A stretch of DNA of 34,875 bases from Cellulomonas algicola (GTDB taxonomy: Bacteria; Actinomycetota; Actinomycetes; Actinomycetales; Cellulomonadaceae): positions 1 to 34,875 of the forward strand of contig NZ_BHYL01000067.1 of NCBI RefSeq assembly GCF_003851725.1. The letters are read 5' to 3'. This document shows, piece by piece, positions 1-30,211 of this stretch. A program made the position numbers and the translations under genes. The notes under the pieces were generated by a model. That model did not search any database and was not told the origin of the DNA. It saw nothing but the letters and a program-made list of their open reading frames with translations. The first letter of the stretch is position 1. The number at the start of each line of letters is the position of its first letter.

Positions 1-267
1 GGCGGGTGCGGTCGCCTCGCTCGGGAGCGGGCGGCCCGCGCTCGTGCGCGGCTCGCGGTCCGCGGTCGGGTCGTCCGCCGCCGGGACCGGCTCGCGGTCC
101 GCAGCCCGTTGGTCCGCCGCGGTGAGCGGCTCGTGCGTCGCGGTCGCGTCGGGGGCGTCCGTGTCGGGGGCGTCCGCGTCGGAGGCGGCCGGCGGGTGCT
201 CCTGCTCCGGGGGCGCGTCGTCGTCGGGCCCGTCGCTGCGCGCGGGCTCTGCTCGGCCGTCGGTCAT
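1..267 (-). CDS. N-terminus of an acidic low-complexity protein, runs off the window
   Basis: An open frame on the minus strand starts with ATG at 265-267 and continues without a stop to the window edge, about 89 codons. A G-rich ribosome site (GGGGGGCGGG) lies directly upstream. The visible part is rich in Asp, Ala, Pro, Glu and Thr (it begins MTDGRAEPARSDGPDDDAPP), with no hydrophobic segment, so it looks like a disordered N-terminal tail. The function is not recognisable from this part; such tails precede many actinobacterial membrane or cell-division proteins, but that is only a possibility. The start call rests on the ribosome site and on the minus-strand neighbour ending about 100 bases upstream. 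Confidence 0.5.
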   Translation of the reverse strand, partial: MTDGRAEPARSDGPDDDAPPEQEHPPAASDADAPDTDAPDATATHEPLTAADQRAADREPVPAADDPTADREPRTSAGRPLPSEATAPA

Positions 268-366
268 CCCGCCCCCCAGCGTCGGATGTCGCACCCGGGG
301 TCAGCCAAGCACGGACGCGACGCCGCCGCGCGCGACGCACCCGTCCCCGCGCGACGTCGTCCGTCG

Positions 367-3300
367 TCAGGCGGTCCGGCGGCGGACGACCAGACGCAGC
401 GCGGCGCCGCCGACGAGGAGCGCGAGGGCGAGCGCGAGGAACGCGGCCGCGGACGTACCGGTCGTGGCGAGGGCGGCGTCGCTGCCCCCGGCGCCCGCGT
501 CCGGCACCGTCGGGTCGACGGGCACCGGCGGCTGGGGCGGGTCGGGCGGGTCGACCGGGGGCGCGTAGACGTTGAGCGCGGCGCACGTGACGTCCGCCCC
601 CTCGTCGACGATCACGACGTCGCCCAGCACGGTCGCGCTGTCGCAGGTCCAGCTGGCGAACCGGTAGTCGGCGGGACCGTCGAGCCCTTCGGCCAGCCGG
701 TACACGCCCGGCACGACGGGGATCGAGCGGACCGCGGCGCTGCCTCCCGGACCCCGCCACGTGCCCGTCGGGCCGGTCGCGACGAGCGTGAAGTCCGCCG
801 GCTGCGCGGTGCCGCCGACGACGACCTTCTGGAGCGTGAGCGTCCCGCCGATCCACGTGTTGGTCGCGGTGCAGGTGACCTCGTCGTTGGCGGCGAGGTC
901 GACGGTCCGGTCGACGACGGGATGGTCGGGCCCGCAGTCCCACGCGTCGAGGTCGTACCCGCGGCCGGCGACGTCGGTCCGTGCGACCTCCGCGAGCGTG
1001 TACGTGCCCGGCGCGACGACGCCCGTCGCCCCGGCGCTGCCGGACGTGCCGCTGAACGACGAGCCACCCGGCGACGACGCGACCAGCGTCCAGTCCTGCG
1101 CCGCGGCCGGTCCGCCGTCGACGGACTTCGCGAGCGTGAGCTGCGCACCCGCCCAGCGGTTCGTGACGGTGCAGGTCACGTCGTCGCCGAGGGCGAGCGT
1201 GATCGACCCGTCGGCGGCGACGGGCACGGTCCCGCCGGACGCGTCGACGCACGTCCACCCCTGCGAGACGTAGTTCGTCAGCCCGATCTCGGTGAGCCGG
1301 TACGTGCCGGCGCCGACGGGCACGTCGGTGACGGTCACGCTGCCGGTGCTGCCGACGAGCAGGCCCCCGCTGCCGATGGCGAGCAGCACGAACGCGGACG
1401 GCTGCGCGGGACCGCCGCCGCGGTTGTCCAGGGTCTTGACGAGCGTGAGCTCCGGGGCCACGTCGGAGTTGACGATCGCGCACCGCACGTCGTCGGTGAA
1501 CGGCGACCCGTCGGCACCCGTCGCGGGGACGACGAGCACGCCGTCGGGCGCGTCGACGAACGCGCCGCCGGCCTGGCAGATCCAGTCGGACGCCTCGTAG
1601 CCGGGTGTCGTCGCGGGCGACTCCGCGAGCTGGTAGGTGCCCGGGGTGATCGCGACGCGCGTGACCGCGGGCGTGCCGGTGGTGCCGCTGAACGACGTGG
1701 GCCCGGTCGCCGAGAGGGTCCACTGCGACGCGGTCGCGGTGCCGCCCGCGTCGTTGGCGACGAGCTTGGTGAGCGTGAGGTGCGGCTGCGTGGCGACGTT
1801 GGTGACGGTGCACGTGACGTCGTCCCCGGCGGCGAGGGTCACGACGTCGCCCGCGATCGGGGCGGCGCCGCACGTCCAGCCGGACGCGGTGAACCCGGCG
1901 ATCGTGGACTCCCCCAGCGTGTAGGCGCCGGCGGGCACCGGCACGCGGGTGGCGGCGGGAGACCCGCTGACGCCCGAGACGGTCGCCTCCGGACCCGTGG
2001 CGGTGAGCGTCCACGCCGCGGGCGGGGCGCTGCTGCCCTCGACCTCCTTGACGAGGGTCAGGAACGCGCCGGACCACGTGTTCACGACGGTGCAGACGAC
2101 GTCGGCGGGCTGGTCGACGGTCACGACGTCGGCCGCGACGGTGGCGCCGTCGCAGGTCCACGGGCCTGCGGTGTACCCGGGCGGCCCGTCCTCGGACAGC
2201 GCCCACGACGAGCCCACGTCGACGGCCTGCCGCGTGACGGCGGGCGAGCCTGCGGGCCCGCTGAGGACGACGCCGTCCGGCGCGTCCACGGCGGTCAGCG
2301 TGAAGTCGCCGGGGAGCGCGGTGCCGCCGGCACGGTTGTCGACGACCTTGGCGAGCGTGAGGCTGCCGCGCTCGATGGTGTTGGTGATCGTGCAGGTGAC
2401 GTCCGCGCCGGCGGTGATCTCGACCGTGCCGGTCGCACCGCCGCCCCCGCCGTCGCACACCCACCCCGACGCGGTGTAGTTGGTCGGCCCGGACTCGGCG
2501 AGCGCGTACGTCCCGGCGGGCACCTGCGCGCCGGTCACCGCGGGACCGCCCGAGACGCCCGACACCGTGACGGGTCCTGTCGCGCTGAGGGTCCACGCCT
2601 GCGGGATCAACGACCCGCCCACGGCCTGCTTGACCAGCGTGAGCGTCCCGCCGGTCCACGTGTTGGTGACGGTGCAGACCGCGTCGCCGTCGCCGTCGGC
2701 GAGCGTGAGCGTGCTGCCGCTGACGGTCCCCGCGGTGCACGACCACGCCGACGCCGTGTACCCGGCCTGGGCGGCGGGCGTCGTGGGCGTCTCCGCGAGC
2801 GTGTACGTGCCGGACGGGACGGGCACCTCGGTGACGGTCGGCGAGCCGGACACGCCCTCGACGGTGCCGGGCGGGCCCGTCCCGGACAGCAGGAAGTCCG
2901 CGGTCGTGGCCGGGCCGCCGACGACCTCCTTGCGCAGGGTGACGAGGTGCGGCGTCGGCTGCGACCGCGAGTTGGTGATCACGCACTCGACGTCCTGGGC
3001 GAGCGACACCACGACGCTCGACGGGCCGGTCTGCGTGCCGCCGGTGCAGACCCAGTCGCCCGCGGTGTACCCCGACGGGCCGCCGGTCTCGGAGAGCTGG
3101 TACTCGCCGATCCGCACGGGTCCGCTCGCGGCGCCCGGGCCGGTCACGGTCGTGGGGCCCTGGGCGGTGAGGTTCCACGCGCTGGGCGACGCCGGACCGC
3201 CCGTCACGACCTTGCGGAGCGTGAGGCTCGGCTGGATCGCGTCGTTGCGGACCGTGCACGTGAGCGTGCCGTCGGCGGGGACGGTGACGGTCGGCGTGGG

Positions 3301-3651
3301 GTCGGTGAACGTGCCCGCCGCCCCGCAGTCCCAGCTCACGAACGCGTACCCGGGCACACCGCCGGACTCGCTGATCGTGTAGTCGCCCGCGGGCACGACG
3401 AGCGACTGGACCCCGTTGAGGCCGTTGCCGGTGAACGTGTACGCGGGGTCCTCGGTGTTCACCGCGGTCATCGTCCACAGCTCGCGGCGCCCCTCGCTCG
3501 CGCCCGTGTCGAGGTTCTCGATGCGCTTGAACAGCGACAGCCGTCCGGTGACGTCGGGGTCGACCGCGGCCGCGGCGGGGGCGACCGCGCCCAGCACCGC
3601 GAGGACCGCGAGCAGCACGGTGGACGCGACGGGAACGGCAGGGCGACGCAC
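367..3651 (-). CDS. Wall-anchored surface protein with ten prealbumin/SpaA-like repeats and LATTG sorting signal
   Basis: A secreted 1094-residue protein expected to be linked to peptidoglycan. The start is GTG, chosen because GGGGGAGGA lies about 5 bases upstream. Residues 1-29 form a signal peptide (MRRPAVPVAS, a hydrophobic core, then APAAAA). From about residue 35 to 1030 there are ten repeats of roughly 95 residues. Each runs LTLxK, a G-x-Y-x-L-x-E strand, a W-x-C motif and a final C-x-(V/I/A)-x-N. The spacing matches SpaA/CnaB-like prealbumin folds, where Lys, Glu and Asn form an internal isopeptide bond. All ten units keep Lys, Glu, Asn and two Cys. A Pro/Asp-rich linker precedes LATTG (near residue 1061), a hydrophobic helix and RRR, which is a class E-type sortase signal. 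The role is probably adhesion or a surface stalk; the ligand is unknown. A transporter terminator lies upstream, so it probably has its own promoter. Confidence 0.9.
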   Translation of the reverse strand: MRRPAVPVASTVLLAVLAVLGAVAPAAAAVDPDVTGRLSLFKRIENLDTGASEGRRELWTMTAVNTEDPAYTFTGNGLNGVQSLVVPAGDYTISESGGVPGYAFVSWDCGAAGTFTDPTPTVTVPADGTLTCTVRNDAIQPSLTLRKVVTGGPASPSAWNLTAQGPTTVTGPGAASGPVRIGEYQLSETGGPSGYTAGDWVCTGGTQTGPSSVVVSLAQDVECVITNSRSQPTPHLVTLRKEVVGGPATTADFLLSGTGPPGTVEGVSGSPTVTEVPVPSGTYTLAETPTTPAAQAGYTASAWSCTAGTVSGSTLTLADGDGDAVCTVTNTWTGGTLTLVKQAVGGSLIPQAWTLSATGPVTVSGVSGGPAVTGAQVPAGTYALAESGPTNYTASGWVCDGGGGGATGTVEITAGADVTCTITNTIERGSLTLAKVVDNRAGGTALPGDFTLTAVDAPDGVVLSGPAGSPAVTRQAVDVGSSWALSEDGPPGYTAGPWTCDGATVAADVVTVDQPADVVCTVVNTWSGAFLTLVKEVEGSSAPPAAWTLTATGPEATVSGVSGSPAATRVPVPAGAYTLGESTIAGFTASGWTCGAAPIAGDVVTLAAGDDVTCTVTNVATQPHLTLTKLVANDAGGTATASQWTLSATGPTSFSGTTGTPAVTRVAITPGTYQLAESPATTPGYEASDWICQAGGAFVDAPDGVLVVPATGADGSPFTDDVRCAIVNSDVAPELTLVKTLDNRGGGPAQPSAFVLLAIGSGGLLVGSTGSVTVTDVPVGAGTYRLTEIGLTNYVSQGWTCVDASGGTVPVAADGSITLALGDDVTCTVTNRWAGAQLTLAKSVDGGPAAAQDWTLVASSPGGSSFSGTSGSAGATGVVAPGTYTLAEVARTDVAGRGYDLDAWDCGPDHPVVDRTVDLAANDEVTCTATNTWIGGTLTLQKVVVGGTAQPADFTLVATGPTGTWRGPGGSAAVRSIPVVPGVYRLAEGLDGPADYRFASWTCDSATVLGDVVIVDEGADVTCAALNVYAPPVDPPDPPQPPVPVDPTVPDAGAGGSDAALATTGTSAAAFLALALALLVGGAALRLVVRRRTA

Positions 3652-3784
3652 GGTTCCTCCCCCGCGGGCCGTGGCCGGCGCCGGACCCGCCCGTGCCCCA
3701 TGCCGGACACGTCCCGTCGACTGTCACACGGCCGGGCGATCTTCACGACCCGAGGCGCGCGACGTGCGTGCGGCCCCGGCAGCA

Positions 3785-3823
3785 CGACGCGGACCGCGCG
3801 AGGCGTCCGCACGGTCCGCGTCG
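3785..3823 (-). terminator. Terminator of the ABC transporter operon
   Basis: A perfect 12-bp inverted repeat (CGACGCGGACCG at 3785-3796 and CGGTCCGCGTCG at 3812-3823) with a 15-nt loop lies just after the permease stop codon. There is no clear U-tract, as is usual for actinobacterial hairpin terminators. Confidence 0.7.
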
Positions 3824-3831
3824 CGGGGCCG

Positions 3832-6384
3832 TCACTCGTACGCGACGGCGTCCAGCACCTTGAGCCGGGCGGCGCGGATCCCGGGCCACAGCGCGGCCAG
3901 CACGCCGACGACGACGGCCAGCGCGACCATCCCGCCGAGGTTCGCCCACGGCACGGCGAGCTCCGACAGCCCGTCGTCCGCGTACACGGTCGGCATCGTC
4001 GCGGCCAGCGCGACGCCGACCGCGAGGCCGAGCACGGTCCCGAACACCGCGGTCAGCACCGACTCGATCGTCACCGTCCCGGCGAGCTGCAGGCGCCCGA
4101 GCCCGACGGCCCGCAGCAGCCCGATCTCCCGCGTCCGCTCGATCACGGACAGCGCGAGGGTGTTGACGATGCCGAGGACCGCGATGACGACGGACAGGCC
4201 GAGCAGCGCGTAGAGGATCACGAGCAGCTGGTCGACCTGGGCCGCGAGGTTCGACACGAACTCGTCGCGCGTCAGCACGGACACGACGACATAGGGCGCG
4301 ACGACGTCGGCGACGGCGTCCTGCAGCTCGGTCGCGGTCACCCCGGCGGCCGCGGTCACGAGGATCGTGTCGACCTGCTGCTGCTCGCGCGGGACGAGCG
4401 TGTCGAGGACGTCCTGCCCGACGACGAGCGGCGCCCCGAGGACGTTCGTCGTGAAGACCGCCACGACGGACAGGTCCTGCGGCCCCGCGGCGCCGGCGAC
4501 GGTCAGGTCGTCGCCGACCTGCCAGCCGTGCTGGTCCGCGGCGGCCTCCGTGACGGCGACCTGCCCCGCGTCGAGCGCCTCGAGCGCGGCGAGCGACCCG
4601 TCGACGAGCTCGACCTCGACGGACCGGCCGAGCGTGCCGTCGGCGAGGCCGATCACGTAGTCGACCGCGGGCTCCTCGCCCGGCCCGGAGACGGCGAGCG
4701 GCGCGAACGCGACCGCGTCCGAGGTGCCGGCCTCGGGCAGCGCGGCGACCTCGTCGACGGCCCCGGACGGGATGACCATGGTCGCCGAGCGGACCACGAC
4801 GTCGGCGTTCGTCTGCGCCTCGACGACGCCCGTGACGGACTGCTGCGCGGACACCGCGATGACGGACACCGCCCCCACGAGCGCCATGCCGATCATGAGC
4901 GCGCCCGCGGTGTTCGCGGTGCGGCGCGGGTTGCGCACGACGTTGCCGCGCGCGAGCCGGCCGACGGGCCGCAGCAGCCGCACGAACGGCCACGCGAGGA
5001 CGCCCACGGCGGCGCGCGCGACGACGGGCGACAGCATGAGCACCCCGACGAGCACGGCGCCCGCGCCGACGCCGAGCAGCGTCTCGGCCGCGTCCTCCTC
5101 CGGCCGGGTCAGGGCCAGGGCGAGGGCGGTGACGCCGAGCGCGCCGATCGCGAGGCCGCCGACGGCACGCCAGCGCAGCGACCGCTCGGGCACCGCGACG
5201 TCGTCGCGCATGGCCTCGACGGGCGGCACGAGCGCGGCCCGGCGGGCGGGCAGCGCGGCCGCGAGCACGCTCACGGCGGTCCCGACGACGAGCGACACGA
5301 CCACCGTCGTCGCGTCGACGGGGATGTCGCCGACCAGGTCCATGCCGATCGACCCGAGCACGACGCGCAGCCCCGACACCAGGGCCAGACCGCCCGCGAC
5401 GCCGAGCGCCGACCCCAGCAGCCCGACGACGGCCGCCTGCACGAGCACCGACGCGAACACCTGCAGCGGGGACGCCCCGACGGCCCGCAGCAGCGCGAGC
5501 TCGCGCATGCGCTGCCGGACGGACATCGCGAACGTGTTGGAGATGATGAACGCGCCGACGAACAGCGCGATGCCCGCGAAGACCAGCAGGAACGTCGTGA
5601 TGAAGCCGAGCTGGGACGCGATGTCGGCCTTGCTGTCGGCGCGCAGCGCGTCGCCCGTGACGACCTCGAGGCCGTCGCCCGCGAAGGGTGCGAGACGCTC
5701 GGCGAGCTGCTCGGGCGTCGTGCCGTCGGCCGCGTACACGGCGATCTCGTTCACGCCGCCGCCGTCGGGCGACAGCACGTCGAGCGCGGTCTGCTGGTCG
5801 ACCAGCACGATCGTCGCGCCGGCCATCGGCCCGCCGAGGTCGACGCGTCCGACGATCTCGACCTCGGTCACCTCACCGCCGAGCACGGCCGTCGTGGTGT
5901 CGCCGACGGACAGCCCGGACGACTCGAGCGTCGCCGTCTCGAGCGCCACCTCGCCCGTGCGCTCCGGCCCGCGCCCCTCCACGACGTGGAGCGACGGGTC
6001 GTCGGGCACGTAGTTGAGGGCGAGGCTGGGCGCCTGCGTGGACTGCACCGCGGTCCCGTCGGCGCCGACCAGGACGATCGTGCCTGACAGGCCGCCGATC
6101 GCGTGCGCGACGCCGTCGACCGCGGCGACCTCGTCGACGAGCTCGAGCGGCACGCTCTGCGCGGTCGTGGTGCCCATGACGACGGACGCGTCGTCGGGCT
6201 GGTCGACGCGCACGTACGCGTCGGCGGGCGCGGCGGCGTCGACGATCCCGTCGAAGGTGCCCGACAGCATGGTCCGCAGCGCGAACGTGCCCGCGACGAA
6301 CGCGACCCCGAGCGCGACGGCGAGCAGCGAGAGCAGGAACCGCACGAGGTGCGCGCGGATCCCGCGGAGCGCGACGCGGCCCAT
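3832..6384 (-). CDS. ABC transporter permease with two FtsX domains (MacB/LolC-like)
   Basis: An 850-residue inner-membrane protein, partner of the ATPase directly upstream; its ATG (6382-6384) overlaps the ATPase stop in TGATG, so the two are translationally coupled. It begins with a short cytoplasmic stretch and a transmembrane helix (about residues 15-36), then an extracytoplasmic MacB-type core domain (about 40-260) and a first FtsX block of three helices containing RQRMRELALLRAVGAS. Two more central helices follow, then a second helix, a second core domain (about 520-710) and a second FtsX block with IERTREIGLLRAVG. This tandem layout is known for MacB-type mechanotransmission and lipoprotein/peptide export permeases of Gram-positive bacteria. 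The substrate cannot be told from sequence. No histidine kinase/regulator pair of the bacitracin-sensing type is adjacent. Confidence 0.93.
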   Translation of the reverse strand: MGRVALRGIRAHLVRFLLSLLAVALGVAFVAGTFALRTMLSGTFDGIVDAAAPADAYVRVDQPDDASVVMGTTTAQSVPLELVDEVAAVDGVAHAIGGLSGTIVLVGADGTAVQSTQAPSLALNYVPDDPSLHVVEGRGPERTGEVALETATLESSGLSVGDTTTAVLGGEVTEVEIVGRVDLGGPMAGATIVLVDQQTALDVLSPDGGGVNEIAVYAADGTTPEQLAERLAPFAGDGLEVVTGDALRADSKADIASQLGFITTFLLVFAGIALFVGAFIISNTFAMSVRQRMRELALLRAVGASPLQVFASVLVQAAVVGLLGSALGVAGGLALVSGLRVVLGSIGMDLVGDIPVDATTVVVSLVVGTAVSVLAAALPARRAALVPPVEAMRDDVAVPERSLRWRAVGGLAIGALGVTALALALTRPEEDAAETLLGVGAGAVLVGVLMLSPVVARAAVGVLAWPFVRLLRPVGRLARGNVVRNPRRTANTAGALMIGMALVGAVSVIAVSAQQSVTGVVEAQTNADVVVRSATMVIPSGAVDEVAALPEAGTSDAVAFAPLAVSGPGEEPAVDYVIGLADGTLGRSVEVELVDGSLAALEALDAGQVAVTEAAADQHGWQVGDDLTVAGAAGPQDLSVVAVFTTNVLGAPLVVGQDVLDTLVPREQQQVDTILVTAAAGVTATELQDAVADVVAPYVVVSVLTRDEFVSNLAAQVDQLLVILYALLGLSVVIAVLGIVNTLALSVIERTREIGLLRAVGLGRLQLAGTVTIESVLTAVFGTVLGLAVGVALAATMPTVYADDGLSELAVPWANLGGMVALAVVVGVLAALWPGIRAARLKVLDAVAYE

Positions 6385-7202
6385 CAGAGCGCGGCGGGGG
6401 ACGACGTCGCCACGGGAGCGGCGGACGCGGCGGACGCGGCGGGAGCGGCGGGCTCGGTCGACCGTGCCGGGCGGAGCGCCGCGAGAGCGGCGAGCACCGA
6501 CTCGGTCGTGGGGTCGACGACCTCGCCGACCAGGCGCCCGTCGGCCAGGAACAGCACGCGGTGCGCGTACGACGCGGCCGTCGGGTCGTGCGTGACCATG
6601 ACGACGGACTGCCCGAGCTCGTCGACGGACCGGCGCAGGAAGCCGAGCACCTCGGCGGACGACGTGGAGTCGAGGTTGCCCGTGGGCTCGTCGGCGAACA
6701 CGACGGCGGGCCGCGTGACGAGGGCGCGCGCGCACGCCACGCGCTGCTGCTGCCCGCCCGAGAGCTCGGACGGCTTGTGGTCGAGGCGGTCCTCGAGCCC
6801 GACGGCGCGCACGACGGTGTCGAGGTGCGCGCGGTCGACGGGACGCCGCGCGATGTCGAGCGGCAGCGTGATGTTCTCGAGCGCCGTCAGGGTGGGGACC
6901 AGGTTGAACGCCTGGAAGACGAACCCGAGGCGGTCGCGGCGCAGCCGGGTGAGCTTCCGCTCGTTCATGCCGGAGACCTCGAGGCCGTCGACGACGACCG
7001 TCCCCGCGTCGGTGCGGTCGAGCCCCGCCATGCAGTGCATGAGCGTCGACTTGCCCGACCCGGAGGGGCCCATGATCGCGGTCAGCTCGCCGCGGCCGAA
7101 GTCGACGTCGACGCCCGCGAGCGCGTGCACCGCCGTGTCGCCCCTGCCGTACGTCTTGACCAGCCCGCGCGCGCTCGCGATCGGGGTCGTGTCCCTCGCC
7201 AT
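6384..7202 (-). CDS. ABC transporter ATP-binding protein (MacB/LolD family)
   Basis: A 272-residue ATPase that powers the neighbouring FtsX permease. ATG at 7200-7202 follows GGAGG at a good distance. Visible motifs are Walker A GPSGSGKST (45-53), the Q-loop in FVFQAFNLVPTLTALEN (about 94-110), the signature LSGGQQQRV (147-155), Walker B VVFADE followed by PTGNLDS (167-178), and the H-loop in VMVTHD near residue 205. The sequence around the Q-loop and PTGNLD is the usual form for the LolD/MacB/FtsE branch. A C-terminal extension rich in Ala and Pro (about residues 235-272) has no known domain and differs from the compact family ending. It is first in a two-gene operon with the permease. Confidence 0.95.
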   Translation of the reverse strand: MARDTTPIASARGLVKTYGRGDTAVHALAGVDVDFGRGELTAIMGPSGSGKSTLMHCMAGLDRTDAGTVVVDGLEVSGMNERKLTRLRRDRLGFVFQAFNLVPTLTALENITLPLDIARRPVDRAHLDTVVRAVGLEDRLDHKPSELSGGQQQRVACARALVTRPAVVFADEPTGNLDSTSSAEVLGFLRRSVDELGQSVVMVTHDPTAASYAHRVLFLADGRLVGEVVDPTTESVLAALAALRPARSTEPAAPAASAASAAPVATSSPAAL

Positions 7203-8247: not shown

Positions 8248-11200
8248 ATGCCCACCGGCCCCCTGGCCCCGTCCGCGCCCCCCACCGGGGCCCGCCGGCC
8301 GGCCCGACGCACGACCGCCCTCGCGGTGCTCGTCGCGCTCCTCCTCGCCCCCCTCACGGCCCTCGGCCTCGCGAGCCCTGCGGCCGCCGCGACGGTGCGC
8401 GCCTTCACGCCCGTGTTCTCCGCGAACACCAACGGCGACATCCTCATGGCGGCCAACACGCTCATGACGTGCAACGCCACCTCGGGCACCAACTACACGA
8501 ACTGCGCCGCCGCGCGCGCGTCGAGCGTCAACCAGGCGTACTCCAACAACGACTTCACCGCGCAGTTCGTCAACGACGACGCGGACGCCTCGACGTTCAA
8601 CGCGTCGAGCGCGACGCTCACCGTGCCGGAGAACGGCTCGGTGCTGTTCGCGGCCCTCGTCTGGGGCGGGCGCACCGAGACCGCGAACGCGACCTGGTCG
8701 AACTCGGCCCTCCGCGGGAACGTCAAGCTCAAGGTCCCGGGCTCCGCGACGTACCGTGACCTCACGGCGAGCCAGGTCGACGTCAACACGTCGGACAACG
8801 GATACCAGTCGTACCTCGACGTCACGGGCCTCGTCGCGACCGCGGGCAGCGGCGTGTACACGGTCGCGAACGTCCAGTCGACGACGGGCACGACCGACGA
8901 CTACGCCGGCTGGTCGCTCGTCGTCGCAGTCGCGGACCCGGCCGCGCCGGCCCGCAACCTCACGGTGTTCACCGGCTTCGGCTCCGTCGCGTCGGGCAAC
9001 GGCATGCCGACGTTCACCGTGAGCGGCTTCCTCACGCCGCCGAGCGGGCCCGTGAAGACGACGCTCGGGGCCGTGACCTACGAGGGCGACATGGGCCTCA
9101 CCGGTGACGCGTTCCGCCTCAACTCGACGACGATCTCCGACGCGCTGAACCCCGCCACGAACCCGTTCAACTCGTCGATCAGCCGCCACGGCGTGGCCGT
9201 GCCCGGGCGTTCCCCGTCGTACAGCAACCAGCTCGGCTTCGACGCCGACCTGTTCAACGCCGACGGCATCCTGCCGAACGGCGCGACGAGCGCGAACCTC
9301 ACGCTCACCACGGGCGGCGAGACGTTCTACCCGGGCGTCGTCACGTTCGCGACCGAACTGTACGACCCGAAGCTGCTCGGCGTGAAGAGCGTCGAGGACG
9401 TCAACGGCGGGCTCGTCGAGCCCGGCGACGTGCTGCGCTACACGGTCCCCGTGCAGAACATCGGCCTCGACACCGCGTCCGACTCGCGCTTCTTCGACGC
9501 GATCCCGACGGGCACCACCTACGTGCCGGGCTCGCTCGTCGTCGACACCGTCCGGCAGACCGACGCGGCGGGCGACGGCGACGTCGGCCACTACGACGGC
9601 TCGCAGAACGGCCACGTGATCGCCTACCTCGGCTCGGGCGCGACCTCCGTGCACGGCGGCGACGTCCCCGTCTCGGCGTCCGGGTCCACCGCGCAGCACA
9701 CCGTCGTCTTCGACGTCCGGGTGAACGCCGACGCGCGCGACACCCAGAAGATCGTCAACTCGGCGGCCATGACGTACCGCGGCGCGACCACGTACGCCGC
9801 GGCGGCGTCCGCGTCCAACGTCCTGCTGAACCCGGTCGTCACGACGCCGCTGCCGGGCGTCAACCGGCCCCCGGTCGCCCAGCCGCACGTCCTGACGTTC
9901 ACGCCCGGGCCCTCGCAGCGCCGGCTCGACATCGACGTGCTCGCGAACGACAGCGACCCCGACGGGGACGTGCTGACGGTCGTCGCCGTCACCGACACCG
10001 CGGGCGGCACCGCCGAGATCCTGCCCGACGGCCGGATCCGCTACACGCCGCGCGACGACTTCGCCGGTCGTGACGTGTTCACCTACACGATCCAGGACCC
10101 GGGCGGCTACCGCGCGACCACGTCGGTGCAGATCGAGGTGCTCAACACCGCGCCGAACGCCGTCGCCGACACCGCGACCACGCGCGGCGCCACGCCCGTG
10201 GACGTCGACGTGCTCGTCAACGACACCGACCCCAACGGCGACACGCTGCGCCTGCGGTCCGCCGGACCGACGAGCGCCAACGGCGGCACGGTCACCGTCC
10301 TCGACGGCGACACCGTGACCTACACACCGCGCGCCGGCTTCAAGGGCACGGACACGTTCGAGTACGTCGTCGAGGACTCGCGCGGCCTGACCGACACGGC
10401 CGTCGTGACCGTCACGGTCACGAACAACGCGCCCGTCGCGGTCGCGGACTCCTACACCGTCAACACGGGCGCCACGCGGTCGATCTCGGTGCTGGCCAAC
10501 GACACCGACGCCGACGGCGACCCGCTCACCGCGGTCCTCGTCACCGGTCCGGCGCACGGCACGCTGACGCTCAACCCGAACGGCACCGGCACGTACACGC
10601 CGAGCGGCTCGTACCGCGGGACGGACTCGTTCACCTACCGGGTGTCCGACGGCACCGCGCAGTCGACCGTCGTCACGGTCACCTTCACCGTCAACGGCGC
10701 ACCGACAGCCGGCGACGACACCGCGACGGTCGCGGCCGGGCAGACGTCGGTCGACGTCGACGTCCTGACGAACGACGCGGACGCCGAGGGCGACCTCACG
10801 GTCACCGTGACCGGCGCGCCCGCGCACGGCACGACCGCCGTCCAGGCCGACGGCACCGTCCGGTACACGCCGAGCACCGGCTGGGCCGGCACCGACCGGT
10901 TCACCTACACGGTGACCGACGAGGGCGGGCTCACGGACACCGCGGAGGTCGTCGTGACCGTCGCGAACACCCCGCCGGTCGCCGTCGACGACACCGCCAG
11001 CACCGCGACGAACACGTCGGCGAGCCACGTCGCCGTGCTCGCCAACGACACCGACGTGAACGTCACCGCCGGGGTCCCCGGGCAGTCGCTGCGCATCGTC
11101 TCCGCGACCGCGGACCGCGGCACGGTCGACGTCGAGACCGACGGGACGCTGAGCGTCCACCCGCCGACCGGCTTCTCCGGCACGATCGTCGTGACCTACA

Positions 11201-12534
11201 CGGTCGGCGACGGCGCGGGCGGCACCGACGTCGGCGAGCTCCGCGTGACCGTCGCCAACGGCTCGCCGTCCGCGGTCGCCGACGGCCCCGTCACCACGCC
11301 GACCGACCGGTCCGTGCTGGTCGACGTGCTCGACAACGACACCGACCCGAACACGGCCGACGTGCTGTCGATCGTCCCGGGCTCGGTCACGACGCCCCGC
11401 GACTCCGGCGGCACCGCCCGCGGCACGGCCGCGATCGAGAACGGCGAGGTCCGCTACACGCCGCCGACCGGCTGGGCCGGCACCGTGACGTTCACCTACG
11501 ACGTCACCGACGGCGACGTGACGGCCACCGGCACGGTCACCGTGACCGTCGCCAACGCCGCGCCCGTCGCGGTCGACGACACCGCCTCCACGGCGTCCGG
11601 CACGCCCGTCACCGTGGACGTGCTCGGCGACGACACCGACGCGAACATCCCGGGCACCGACCAGGTGCTCGTCGTCACCGGTGCCACCGCCGACAACGGT
11701 GCGACCGTCGTCGTCGAGACCGACGGCCGCCTGACCGTCACGCCGGCCGCGGGCTTCGCGGGCGACGTCACCGTCACCTACACCGTGTCCGACGGTGCGG
11801 GCGGCACGGACACCGGGACGCTCGTCGTCACCGTCGCCAACGCGGCACCCGTCGCTCCCGCGGTCACCGGGACGACCCCGTACGCGACGCCCGTCGAGCT
11901 GGACCTGCTGGACGGCGTCACCGACGCCAACGGCGACCCGCTCACCGTGACGGTCGGCACCCCCACCGGCGCCGACGGCACCACGCGCGGCACCGTGACC
12001 GTCACGAACGGCGTCGCGACCTACACCCCGCCCGCCGGGTTCTCCGGCACCGTGACCTTCACCTACACCGTCGACGACGGGACCGACACGACCACCGCCA
12101 CGGTGACCGTCACCGTCGGGAACGCCGCACCGGTCGTCGTGAAGGCCCCCTCGGGCGGCACGAAGGTCACGACCGGCACGGGCACCTCGGTGACGATCGA
12201 CGTCCTCGCCGACGTCACCGACCCCGACGGCGGCACGGTCACCGTCGTCGACGTCACGCAGCCGTCGTCCGGCGTCGTGGCGATCGTCGACGGCAAGCTC
12301 GTCTACACCCCGGCGCCCGGCTTCACGGGCACCGTGACCTTCACCTACACGGTGGTCGACGACCAGGGCGCCCGCACCACGGGCACCGTCACGGTCGAGG
12401 TGGTCGACGGGCGGGCGGCGCTCGCCACGACCGGCGCGGAGGTCGCGACCGTCGGCGGGGCCGCGCTCCTGCTCCTCGCCCTCGGCGCGACGCTGGTCGC
12501 CGTGCGGCGTCGCCGGGCGGTCACGACCGCCTGA
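8248..12534 (+). CDS. Large wall-anchored surface protein with DUF11-like region, nine cadherin-like repeats and LATTG signal
   Basis: A secreted 1428-residue protein. Residues 1-48 are a long signal peptide (ARRPARR, hydrophobic core, SPAAAA). Residues about 50-370 form a globular head with a Cys pair in LMTCNATSGTNYTNC and many Asn/Thr/Ser residues. About 373-530 resembles a DUF11 (isopeptide/beta-sandwich) domain beginning DPKLLGVKSVEDVNG. From about 539 to 1385 come nine tandem repeats of the Big_9/cadherin-like type, each opening with N-x-x-P-V-A-x-x-D, carrying ND-D-x-x-G-D-x-L and YTP motifs and closing with FTYTV-x-D-x-x-G. LATTG at 1392, a hydrophobic helix and RRRR finish the protein, a sortase signal of the LAxTG class. 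ATG at 8248 has only a weak ribosome site. The acidic loops suggest calcium-rigidified stalk repeats displaying the head domain; the binding target is unknown. Confidence 0.92.
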   Translation: MPTGPLAPSAPPTGARRPARRTTALAVLVALLLAPLTALGLASPAAAATVRAFTPVFSANTNGDILMAANTLMTCNATSGTNYTNCAAARASSVNQAYSNNDFTAQFVNDDADASTFNASSATLTVPENGSVLFAALVWGGRTETANATWSNSALRGNVKLKVPGSATYRDLTASQVDVNTSDNGYQSYLDVTGLVATAGSGVYTVANVQSTTGTTDDYAGWSLVVAVADPAAPARNLTVFTGFGSVASGNGMPTFTVSGFLTPPSGPVKTTLGAVTYEGDMGLTGDAFRLNSTTISDALNPATNPFNSSISRHGVAVPGRSPSYSNQLGFDADLFNADGILPNGATSANLTLTTGGETFYPGVVTFATELYDPKLLGVKSVEDVNGGLVEPGDVLRYTVPVQNIGLDTASDSRFFDAIPTGTTYVPGSLVVDTVRQTDAAGDGDVGHYDGSQNGHVIAYLGSGATSVHGGDVPVSASGSTAQHTVVFDVRVNADARDTQKIVNSAAMTYRGATTYAAAASASNVLLNPVVTTPLPGVNRPPVAQPHVLTFTPGPSQRRLDIDVLANDSDPDGDVLTVVAVTDTAGGTAEILPDGRIRYTPRDDFAGRDVFTYTIQDPGGYRATTSVQIEVLNTAPNAVADTATTRGATPVDVDVLVNDTDPNGDTLRLRSAGPTSANGGTVTVLDGDTVTYTPRAGFKGTDTFEYVVEDSRGLTDTAVVTVTVTNNAPVAVADSYTVNTGATRSISVLANDTDADGDPLTAVLVTGPAHGTLTLNPNGTGTYTPSGSYRGTDSFTYRVSDGTAQSTVVTVTFTVNGAPTAGDDTATVAAGQTSVDVDVLTNDADAEGDLTVTVTGAPAHGTTAVQADGTVRYTPSTGWAGTDRFTYTVTDEGGLTDTAEVVVTVANTPPVAVDDTASTATNTSASHVAVLANDTDVNVTAGVPGQSLRIVSATADRGTVDVETDGTLSVHPPTGFSGTIVVTYTVGDGAGGTDVGELRVTVANGSPSAVADGPVTTPTDRSVLVDVLDNDTDPNTADVLSIVPGSVTTPRDSGGTARGTAAIENGEVRYTPPTGWAGTVTFTYDVTDGDVTATGTVTVTVANAAPVAVDDTASTASGTPVTVDVLGDDTDANIPGTDQVLVVTGATADNGATVVVETDGRLTVTPAAGFAGDVTVTYTVSDGAGGTDTGTLVVTVANAAPVAPAVTGTTPYATPVELDLLDGVTDANGDPLTVTVGTPTGADGTTRGTVTVTNGVATYTPPAGFSGTVTFTYTVDDGTDTTTATVTVTVGNAAPVVVKAPSGGTKVTTGTGTSVTIDVLADVTDPDGGTVTVVDVTQPSSGVVAIVDGKLVYTPAPGFTGTVTFTYTVVDDQGARTTGTVTVEVVDGRAALATTGAEVATVGGAALLLLALGATLVAVRRRRAVTTA

Positions 12535-19137: not shown

Positions 19138-19141
19138 GCTG

Positions 19142-19214
19142 TGCGCCCGGAGGGACTCGAACCCCCAACCTTCTGATCCGTAGTCAGATGCTCTATCCAT
19201 TGAGCTACGGGCGC
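19142..19214 (-). tRNA. tRNA-Arg (anticodon ACG)
   Basis: A 73-nt cloverleaf on the minus strand. The acceptor GCGCCCG pairs with CGGGCGC, the D-arm is GCTC...GAGC, the anticodon stem is TCTGA/TCAGA with loop CTACGGA (anticodon ACG, read as ICG for CGN codons), and the T-loop is in GGGGGTTCGAGTCCC. The discriminator is A. The CCA is not encoded. Confidence 0.97.
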
Positions 19215-30081: not shown

Positions 30082-30122
30082 TCGGAACGACCGCTGACGG
30101 CAGCGACGGGCACTGCCTGGAG

Positions 30123-30211
30123 CGGAGACGGTGGGATTTGAACCCACGGAAGGGTTGCCCCTTCACGACCTTAGCAGGGTCGCGCACTAGACCTGGCTAT
30201 GCGACGTCTCC
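30123..30211 (-). tRNA. tRNA-Ser (anticodon GCT)
   Basis: An 89-nt class II tRNA on the minus strand. The acceptor GGAGACG pairs with CGTCTCC, the anticodon stem is CGACC/GGTCG with loop CTGCTAA (anticodon GCT for AGC/AGT codons), the long variable arm is present (AAGGGGCAACCCTT), the T-loop is TTCAAAT, and the discriminator is G as expected for tRNA-Ser. Confidence 0.97.

Follow-up and report, generated by a model that had tools for sequence, protein, structure and literature searches.

A ten-domain SpaA_2 stalk protein of Cellulomonas algicola with predicted isopeptide bonds, nested disulfides and a probable tip domain

We analyzed a 34,875-nucleotide stretch of DNA from Cellulomonas algicola (contig NZ_BHYL01000067.1, positions 1 to 34,875; hereafter the window), a member of a genus described as cellulose-degrading (PMC3544764). 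On its minus strand, positions 367..3651 hold a gene for a protein of 1094 amino acids (aa), termed here the stalk protein, in which the open reading frame (ORF) list, Pfam matches and the sequence itself delimit ten SpaA_2 domains and a C-terminal LATTG anchor. We consider it likely that this protein is a wall-anchored stalk of CnaB-like SpaA_2 domains, in which isopeptide bonds bear the load, nested disulfides act as staples and domain 1 probably serves as the binding tip.

The ORF opens with GTG, preceded by GGAGGA, and closes with TGA. Ten tandem units occupy residues 36-1030. An earlier reading of this DNA (the original prediction), made by eye, had held that every unit keeps the same five positions. 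As predicted, a Lys, a Glu, the Cys of a W-x-C segment, a second Cys and the Asn of C-x-x-x-N were found in 10 of 10 repeats, each time in the order K, E, C, C, N, so that by sequence all ten carry the Lys, Glu and Asn that define a CnaB-like domain. The motif strings given for the first two residues were too strict: LTLxK and YxLxE are each exact in eight of the ten repeats (with LSLFK and VTLRK as variants of the former, and YTISE and WALSE of the latter), although the key Lys and Glu are retained in all ten. The distance from Lys to Asn is 80-99 residues and that between the two Cys is 20-32, and the second Cys always lies four residues ahead of the Asn. Across its full length the protein contains 10 Lys and 20 Cys, every one of them on a motif position, and 31 Arg. 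Random scatter over 1094 positions would produce this placement with a chance of ~10^-24 for Lys and ~10^-42 for Cys; because the repeats share ancestry, these values show only that the pattern is not random.

The features follow one another along the minus strand. A putative signal peptide (residues 1 to ~29; 3565..3651), recognized by eye from RRP, a hydrophobic core and AAAA, precedes domain 1 (3226..3546; K42, E95, C109, C132 and N136), the outermost repeat and the probable functional tip. The stalk domains are domain 2 (2944..3225; K147, E188, C202, C223 and N227), domain 3 (2644..2943; K241, E287, C305, C326 and N330), domain 4 (2362..2643; K341, E386, C399, C420 and N424), domain 5 (2062..2361; K435, E487, C500, C520 and N524), domain 6, the modeled one (1780..2061; K535, E581, C594, C614 and N618), domain 7, with the widest Cys-to-Cys spacing of 32 (1450..1779; K629, E677, C692, C724 and N728), domain 8 (1141..1449; K739, E788, C801, C827 and N831), domain 9 (841..1140; K842, E888, C906, C927 and N931) and domain 10 (562..840; K942, E988, C1003, C1023 and N1027). 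A proline-rich linker (residues 1031-1060; 472..561), which probably spans the wall, leads to the sorting signal (370..471), made up of LATTG (457-471), a hydrophobic segment and an RRRTA tail.

Pfam SpaA_2 (PF19403) matched the stalk protein in ten stretches (E 6.2e-179, 581.7 bits, cut-off 25), and each repeat alone scored 52.1-82.8 bits, above the cut-off, so that the family search assigned all ten repeats to SpaA_2. PF19403 is presented as having been built as a stalk-domain family (PMC8286594), and a 2025 survey places SpaA_2 among the CnaB-like isopeptide families, with Lys, Glu and Asn as the bond-forming set (PMC12617251). The ten SpaA_2 matches in the genome at E ≤ 0.001 all fall in the stalk gene, which ruled out additional SpaA_2 proteins there at this threshold. 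The closest named relatives, by best segment identity, are from Cellulomonas septica (96%), C. fimi (89%) and C. biazotea (75%). The strains C. fimi HM71 (locus L015) and C. biazotea NBRC 12680 (locus L016) carry the gene. Of 81 genomes of the genus, 25 contained SpaA_2; in evenly drawn samples, with the own genome counted, so did 45 of 297 genomes from the order and 26 of 396 from the phylum. A Chloroflexi metagenome-assembled genome (MAG), a gammaproteobacterial MAG and a Pseudoxanthomonas yielded relatives as well.

The five positions were then followed through the family with a profile that took the stalk-protein repeats as its seed and collected 385 distinct domains; 333 of these cover both ends and were kept, and 52 were dropped. 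Most loci were trimmed to ~3.3 kb around the match, and only exact duplicates were removed, so that near-identical orthologues are counted repeatedly in the figures that follow. The aligned K-E-C-C-N columns were complete in 314 of the 333 domains. Taken singly, the Lys and Glu columns each held their residue in 330 domains and the Asn column in 331. The exceptions were seven domains with one Cys on the columns, eight with none, and four with both Cys that are short of Lys, Glu or Asn. In six of the seven single-Cys cases the first Cys is present but slightly displaced. When Cys were counted over the whole domain, 326 domains had two, six had none and one had a single Cys, that is, 332 of 333 had two or none. 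This two-or-none rule argues for a disulfide and is the strongest sequence evidence for it. The functional constraint and the CnaB/SpaA character that the original prediction had read from the repeats are well supported by the PF19403 matches, by five near-invariant positions across the family and by a confident structural model. A SpaA_2-like domain in each of L093 and L096 (from about frame residue 793 on) has empty Cys columns and two Cys elsewhere, which may represent a different disulfide in the same fold.

Eleven orthologues (L014-L018 and L130-L135) were compared over the whole protein. The ten-domain layout was found in ten of them, and the remaining one has 11 domains. All 11 have exactly two Cys for each domain, including the 11-domain protein with its 22 Cys. 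Six orthologues have as many Lys as domains, four have one Lys more and one has three more.

Structure prediction of a single repeat, which had been proposed as a check together with the family search, gave a confident model. The domain 6 alignment used 44 of 86 candidate rows (10 from the window and 76 from L014-L023); the rows omitted include one with Lys replacing Glu (L023), so that invariance in this alignment is partly by choice, and it was not used as evidence. The model had a mean predicted local distance difference test score (pLDDT) of 96.3 and a predicted template modeling score (pTM) of 0.86. In it, residues 2-10 make up the first strand, which bears the Lys, and residues 83-92 the last, which bears the second Cys and the Asn. 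With VIA-align, the top solved match of domain 6 was 5u6f over residues 169-292 (Z 8.7, root-mean-square deviation (rmsd) 2.5, 90 aligned residues). The construct is described as having two domains, of which this region is the one that bears both an isopeptide and a disulfide (PMC10619420). Domain 1, modeled from 20 rows with a mean pLDDT of 85.2, also matched 5u6f (Z 10.5, rmsd 3.3, 102 aligned), with unrelated rows at 7.8. Below 5u6f both lists hold many Gram-positive pilins, plus some unrelated rows. In a profile search of solved chains the Lys and the Glu aligned with Lys and Glu, respectively, in two repeats of 6fwv; phmmer with the whole stalk protein gave no match among solved chains up to E 1. 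By their Z scores to 5u6f, the modeled domains 6 and 1 are predicted to have the CnaB (transthyretin-like) fold.

Domain 1 differs from the other nine in its conservation. Mean pairwise identity across nine genomes, with L014 and L015 (nearest the window) and L130 (11 domains) excluded, was 75.0% for domain 1 and 58.1, 56.3, 54.7, 54.6, 54.3, 47.9, 53.3, 50.0 and 50.2% for domains 2-10, in that order. Compared individually with the window protein, domain 1 was 90% identical in L016 (other domains 66-79%), 86% in L017 (48-68%), 87% in L018 (53-66%), 97% in L106 (48-92%), 79% in L107 (48-70%) and 86% in L108 (45-63%). In three orthologues of other genera its identity was 58-67%. The signal peptide is less conserved (40% identity in L018, 40% in L108, 43% in L017 and 57% in L107), suggesting that the conservation of domain 1 does not merely reflect nearness to the start of the protein. 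A tblastn search with domain 1 against plasmids gave no match. The identities point to domain 1 as the probable functional tip and to domains 2-10 as a spacer.

The other end of the protein fits a class E sortase substrate. LATTG occupies residues 1061-1065 and is followed by a hydrophobic stretch and RRRTA, as in the LAXTG signal of class E substrates (PMC5148588). The NCBIfam LAXTG profile NF058583 matched this tail weakly (17.3 bits vs. a cut-off of 65). The genome search revealed two sortases, both on other contigs: one of class E (NF033747, 257.7 bits, cut-off 160) and one class F-like that stays under its cut-off. The LATTG, the hydrophobic segment and the basic tail would fit processing by the former. 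In this genome the gene for the class E sortase (L012, 979-1953, plus strand) is followed by what by eye resembles an amidotransferase gene. Among L015-L018 and L130-L135 the sorting motif differs by eye (LATTG, LAATG, LSATG, LGATG, IAATG, LASTG, MASTG and LAGTG), and these variants form a natural collection on which class E sortase specificity could be tested. The same genome yielded one VKOR match and two Thioredoxin_4 matches. Both families are linked to disulfide formation, which makes extracellular disulfide formation plausible.

The residue pattern, the family assignment, the predicted fold, the sorting motif, the sortase and thiol-oxidation genes and the conservation of domain 1 are shown here; we infer how the bonds may form, in what sequence, and what the tip may do. 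The signal peptide would export the chain, and each of the ten domains would fold, with a Lys-Asn isopeptide joining the first and last strands and the Glu serving as catalyst. With the aid of thiol-oxidizing enzymes the two Cys would pair, fastening the last strand near the Asn to the W-x-C segment. The class E sortase would cut LATTG and attach the protein to the wall. A pull on the chain ends would enter each domain by the first strand, cross the isopeptide and leave through the last strand. Because both Cys sit between Lys and Asn, the disulfide would carry no load once the isopeptide exists; the isopeptide would be the load-bearing lock, and the disulfide inside its loop would be a staple for folding or against proteases, or else a fallback. 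Domains 2-10 would hold domain 1, the probable binding tip, off the cell.

Residues four apart on a regular strand share the same face. With the second Cys four residues before the Asn and both Cys in the loop, we read the disulfide as a staple that may hold the Asn strand, close the Cys-Cys loop against proteases and act as a fallback. A bolder version, which we entertain only tentatively, is that (i) isopeptides consume all Lys and disulfides all Cys; (ii) the disulfide speeds the correct isopeptide; and (iii) domain 1 is a new binding head derived from a stalk module. If all bonds were complete, the N-terminus would be the sole free amine of the mature chain; if the head did arise from a stalk module, domain 1 would have stayed constant in sequence as the nine stalk copies diverged.

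Several observations weigh against an isopeptide-locked stalk with a binding tip. The Z of 8.7 for domain 6 is barely over 7 to 8, which the tool states as the typical best score of a model that has no clear match, and the list goes on to unrelated glucosyltransferases at Z 6. Foldseek with domain 6 gave no PDB match at E ≤ 0.001, the best being a streptococcal pilin at 1.7e-2. Seeding the survey profile with the window repeats favors the same residue pattern. The two residue sets are also separable, with the six Cys-less domains keeping Lys, Glu and Asn and the four noted above keeping both Cys; given this separate loss, the disulfide cannot be a strict requirement for the isopeptide throughout the SpaA_2 family. 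According to the 2025 survey, a substantial fraction of the SpaA_2 isopeptides is predicted at low confidence (PMC12617251). Such predictions, together with a FimP domain described as holding all residues and no bond in the crystal (PMC3485203), would suit a buried, hydrogen-bonded or salt-bridged core for which Lys, Glu and Asn are kept, most repeats having no covalent bond. This we find improbable, given the near-invariant columns and a protein with no other Lys despite its 31 Arg, since an ion pair should sometimes tolerate Arg or Asp. Cys that are free, bind metal or bridge neighboring chains, instead of pairing within a domain, have nothing specific in their favor and seem very improbable in the face of the two-or-none rule: the first Cys is slightly displaced in six of the seven single-column cases, two Cys lie elsewhere in two of the eight empty-column cases, and the genome carries the VKOR and Thioredoxin_4 family genes. 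One reading of the possibly doubly cross-linked, very rigid units of the original prediction is that both bonds bear load together and yield an exceptionally rigid rod. Both residue sets do occur in all ten repeats, and the stability of a single unit may profit from them, but we judge two load-bearing bonds unlikely: in every repeat both Cys are nested in the Lys-Asn loop, so that a force on the ends passes through the isopeptide and skips the disulfide, and rigidity between domains is set by the linkers. The least credible alternative is that the protein is the backbone subunit of a sortase-polymerized pilus. Repeated CnaB-like domains with a sorting signal would agree with it, but no Lys is spare, all ten being at isopeptide positions, no class C enzyme is among the two sortases found in the genome, and ten flanking ORFs scanned at L017, L018 and L131 held no sortase. 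The pilus backbone was rejected, as neither an additional Lys for polymerization nor a class C sortase was found.

The role of domain 1 is the part of the preferred reading, a wall-anchored stalk with a probable tip, that meets the most serious competitor. Its conservation may stem from being the first domain to fold, from its first contact with the export machinery or from homogenization by recombination, rather than from ligand binding, and we regard this as a genuine, though not the favored, possibility. Domain 1 adjoins the signal peptide, and conservation falls roughly from domain 2 (58%) to domain 10 (50%). Domain 1 is unremarkable in the two closest relatives (97% vs. 88-99% for the other domains in L014, and 96% vs. 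81-98% in L015), and no known adhesive family was found among the Pfam matches of the stalk protein, domain 1 included; these two observations also count against the tip. However, the drop from domain 1 (75%) to domain 2 exceeds the whole later slope, and the signal peptide is less conserved than domain 1.

The original prediction had raised the possibility that the combination of the two residue sets was undescribed, and this did not hold. Disulfides are reported as prevalent in SpaA_2, SpaA_3, SpaA_4 and DUF7933 (PMC12617251), and an isopeptide and a disulfide within one domain are described for a Mobiluncus adhesin (PMC10619420), SpaD and SpaA (PMC4014117) and FimP (PMC3485203). The stalk protein has the same Lys, Glu and Asn set and Cys as the SpaA_2 family, and nothing here breaks that family. 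The additions of this analysis are (i) the two-or-none Cys rule; (ii) the nested order of the bonds; (iii) the finding that the stalk protein has Lys and Cys at no other positions; and (iv) the ten-domain layout with its conserved outermost domain.

The best VIA match of domains 6 and 1 is domain 47I of the Mobiluncus mulieris adhesin (5u6f and 5u5o), which is described as having a first-to-last-strand isopeptide plus a disulfide (PMC10619420). The disulfide there is reported to join strands 2 and 5 through Cys6887 and Cys6895, which are 8 residues apart and 60 before Asn6955 (PMC10619420), whereas the Cys of the stalk repeats are 20-32 apart with the second always four ahead of the Asn. The pilins SpaA and SpaD of Corynebacterium and FimP and FimA of Actinomyces are likewise described as having Ig-like isopeptide domains, some with a disulfide, as in the stalk repeats. 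According to the same accounts they are polymerized by sortase via a further Lys and have both bonds in only some domains; in contrast, the stalk protein has both residue sets in every repeat and no further Lys. Its LATTG signal and the class E sortase of its genome are shared with the class E LAXTG substrates, but the examples described in the relevant part of that work are Streptomyces chaplins, not long stalks (PMC5148588).

The stalk protein offers a clean, testable example of a predicted isopeptide plus disulfide in each unit of one stalk. Since the cross-linking Lys are the only Lys, labeling of free amines would directly report isopeptide completion, and removal of the Cys would show whether the nested disulfide speeds isopeptide formation. 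The analysis also singles out the 107-residue domain 1 as the likely tip of a surface fiber.

A second LATTG-anchored surface protein of 1428 aa is encoded at 8248-12534 (plus strand), ~4.6 kb from the stalk gene. It has nine Big_9/cadherin-like repeats and an N-terminal part without family assignment, and the class E sortase described above would also suit its anchor. Genes for an FtsX-like permease and an ATP-binding cassette (ABC) ATPase lie at 3832-7202 (minus strand), upstream of the stalk gene and on the same strand. The ABC and FtsX genes are 96-98% identical in the Cellulomonas fimi locus L015, and the short contig of L014 includes part of the FtsX gene, 377 residues long. The four neighbor proteins of the stalk gene were absent from the L017 and L018 loci within ~6 kb on either side. 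A conserved operon partner was rejected on this ground, the ten flanking ORFs at L017, L018 and L131 being of other families or unmatched.

Very long open frames run antisense to real genes at 1-6087 (plus strand), where a frame of 2028 aa lies opposite the stalk and FtsX genes, and elsewhere in the window; such frames are expected at a G+C content of ~75%. The window also holds a tRNA-Arg (acg) at 19141-19214 and a tRNA-Ser (gct) at 30122-30211, both on the minus strand.

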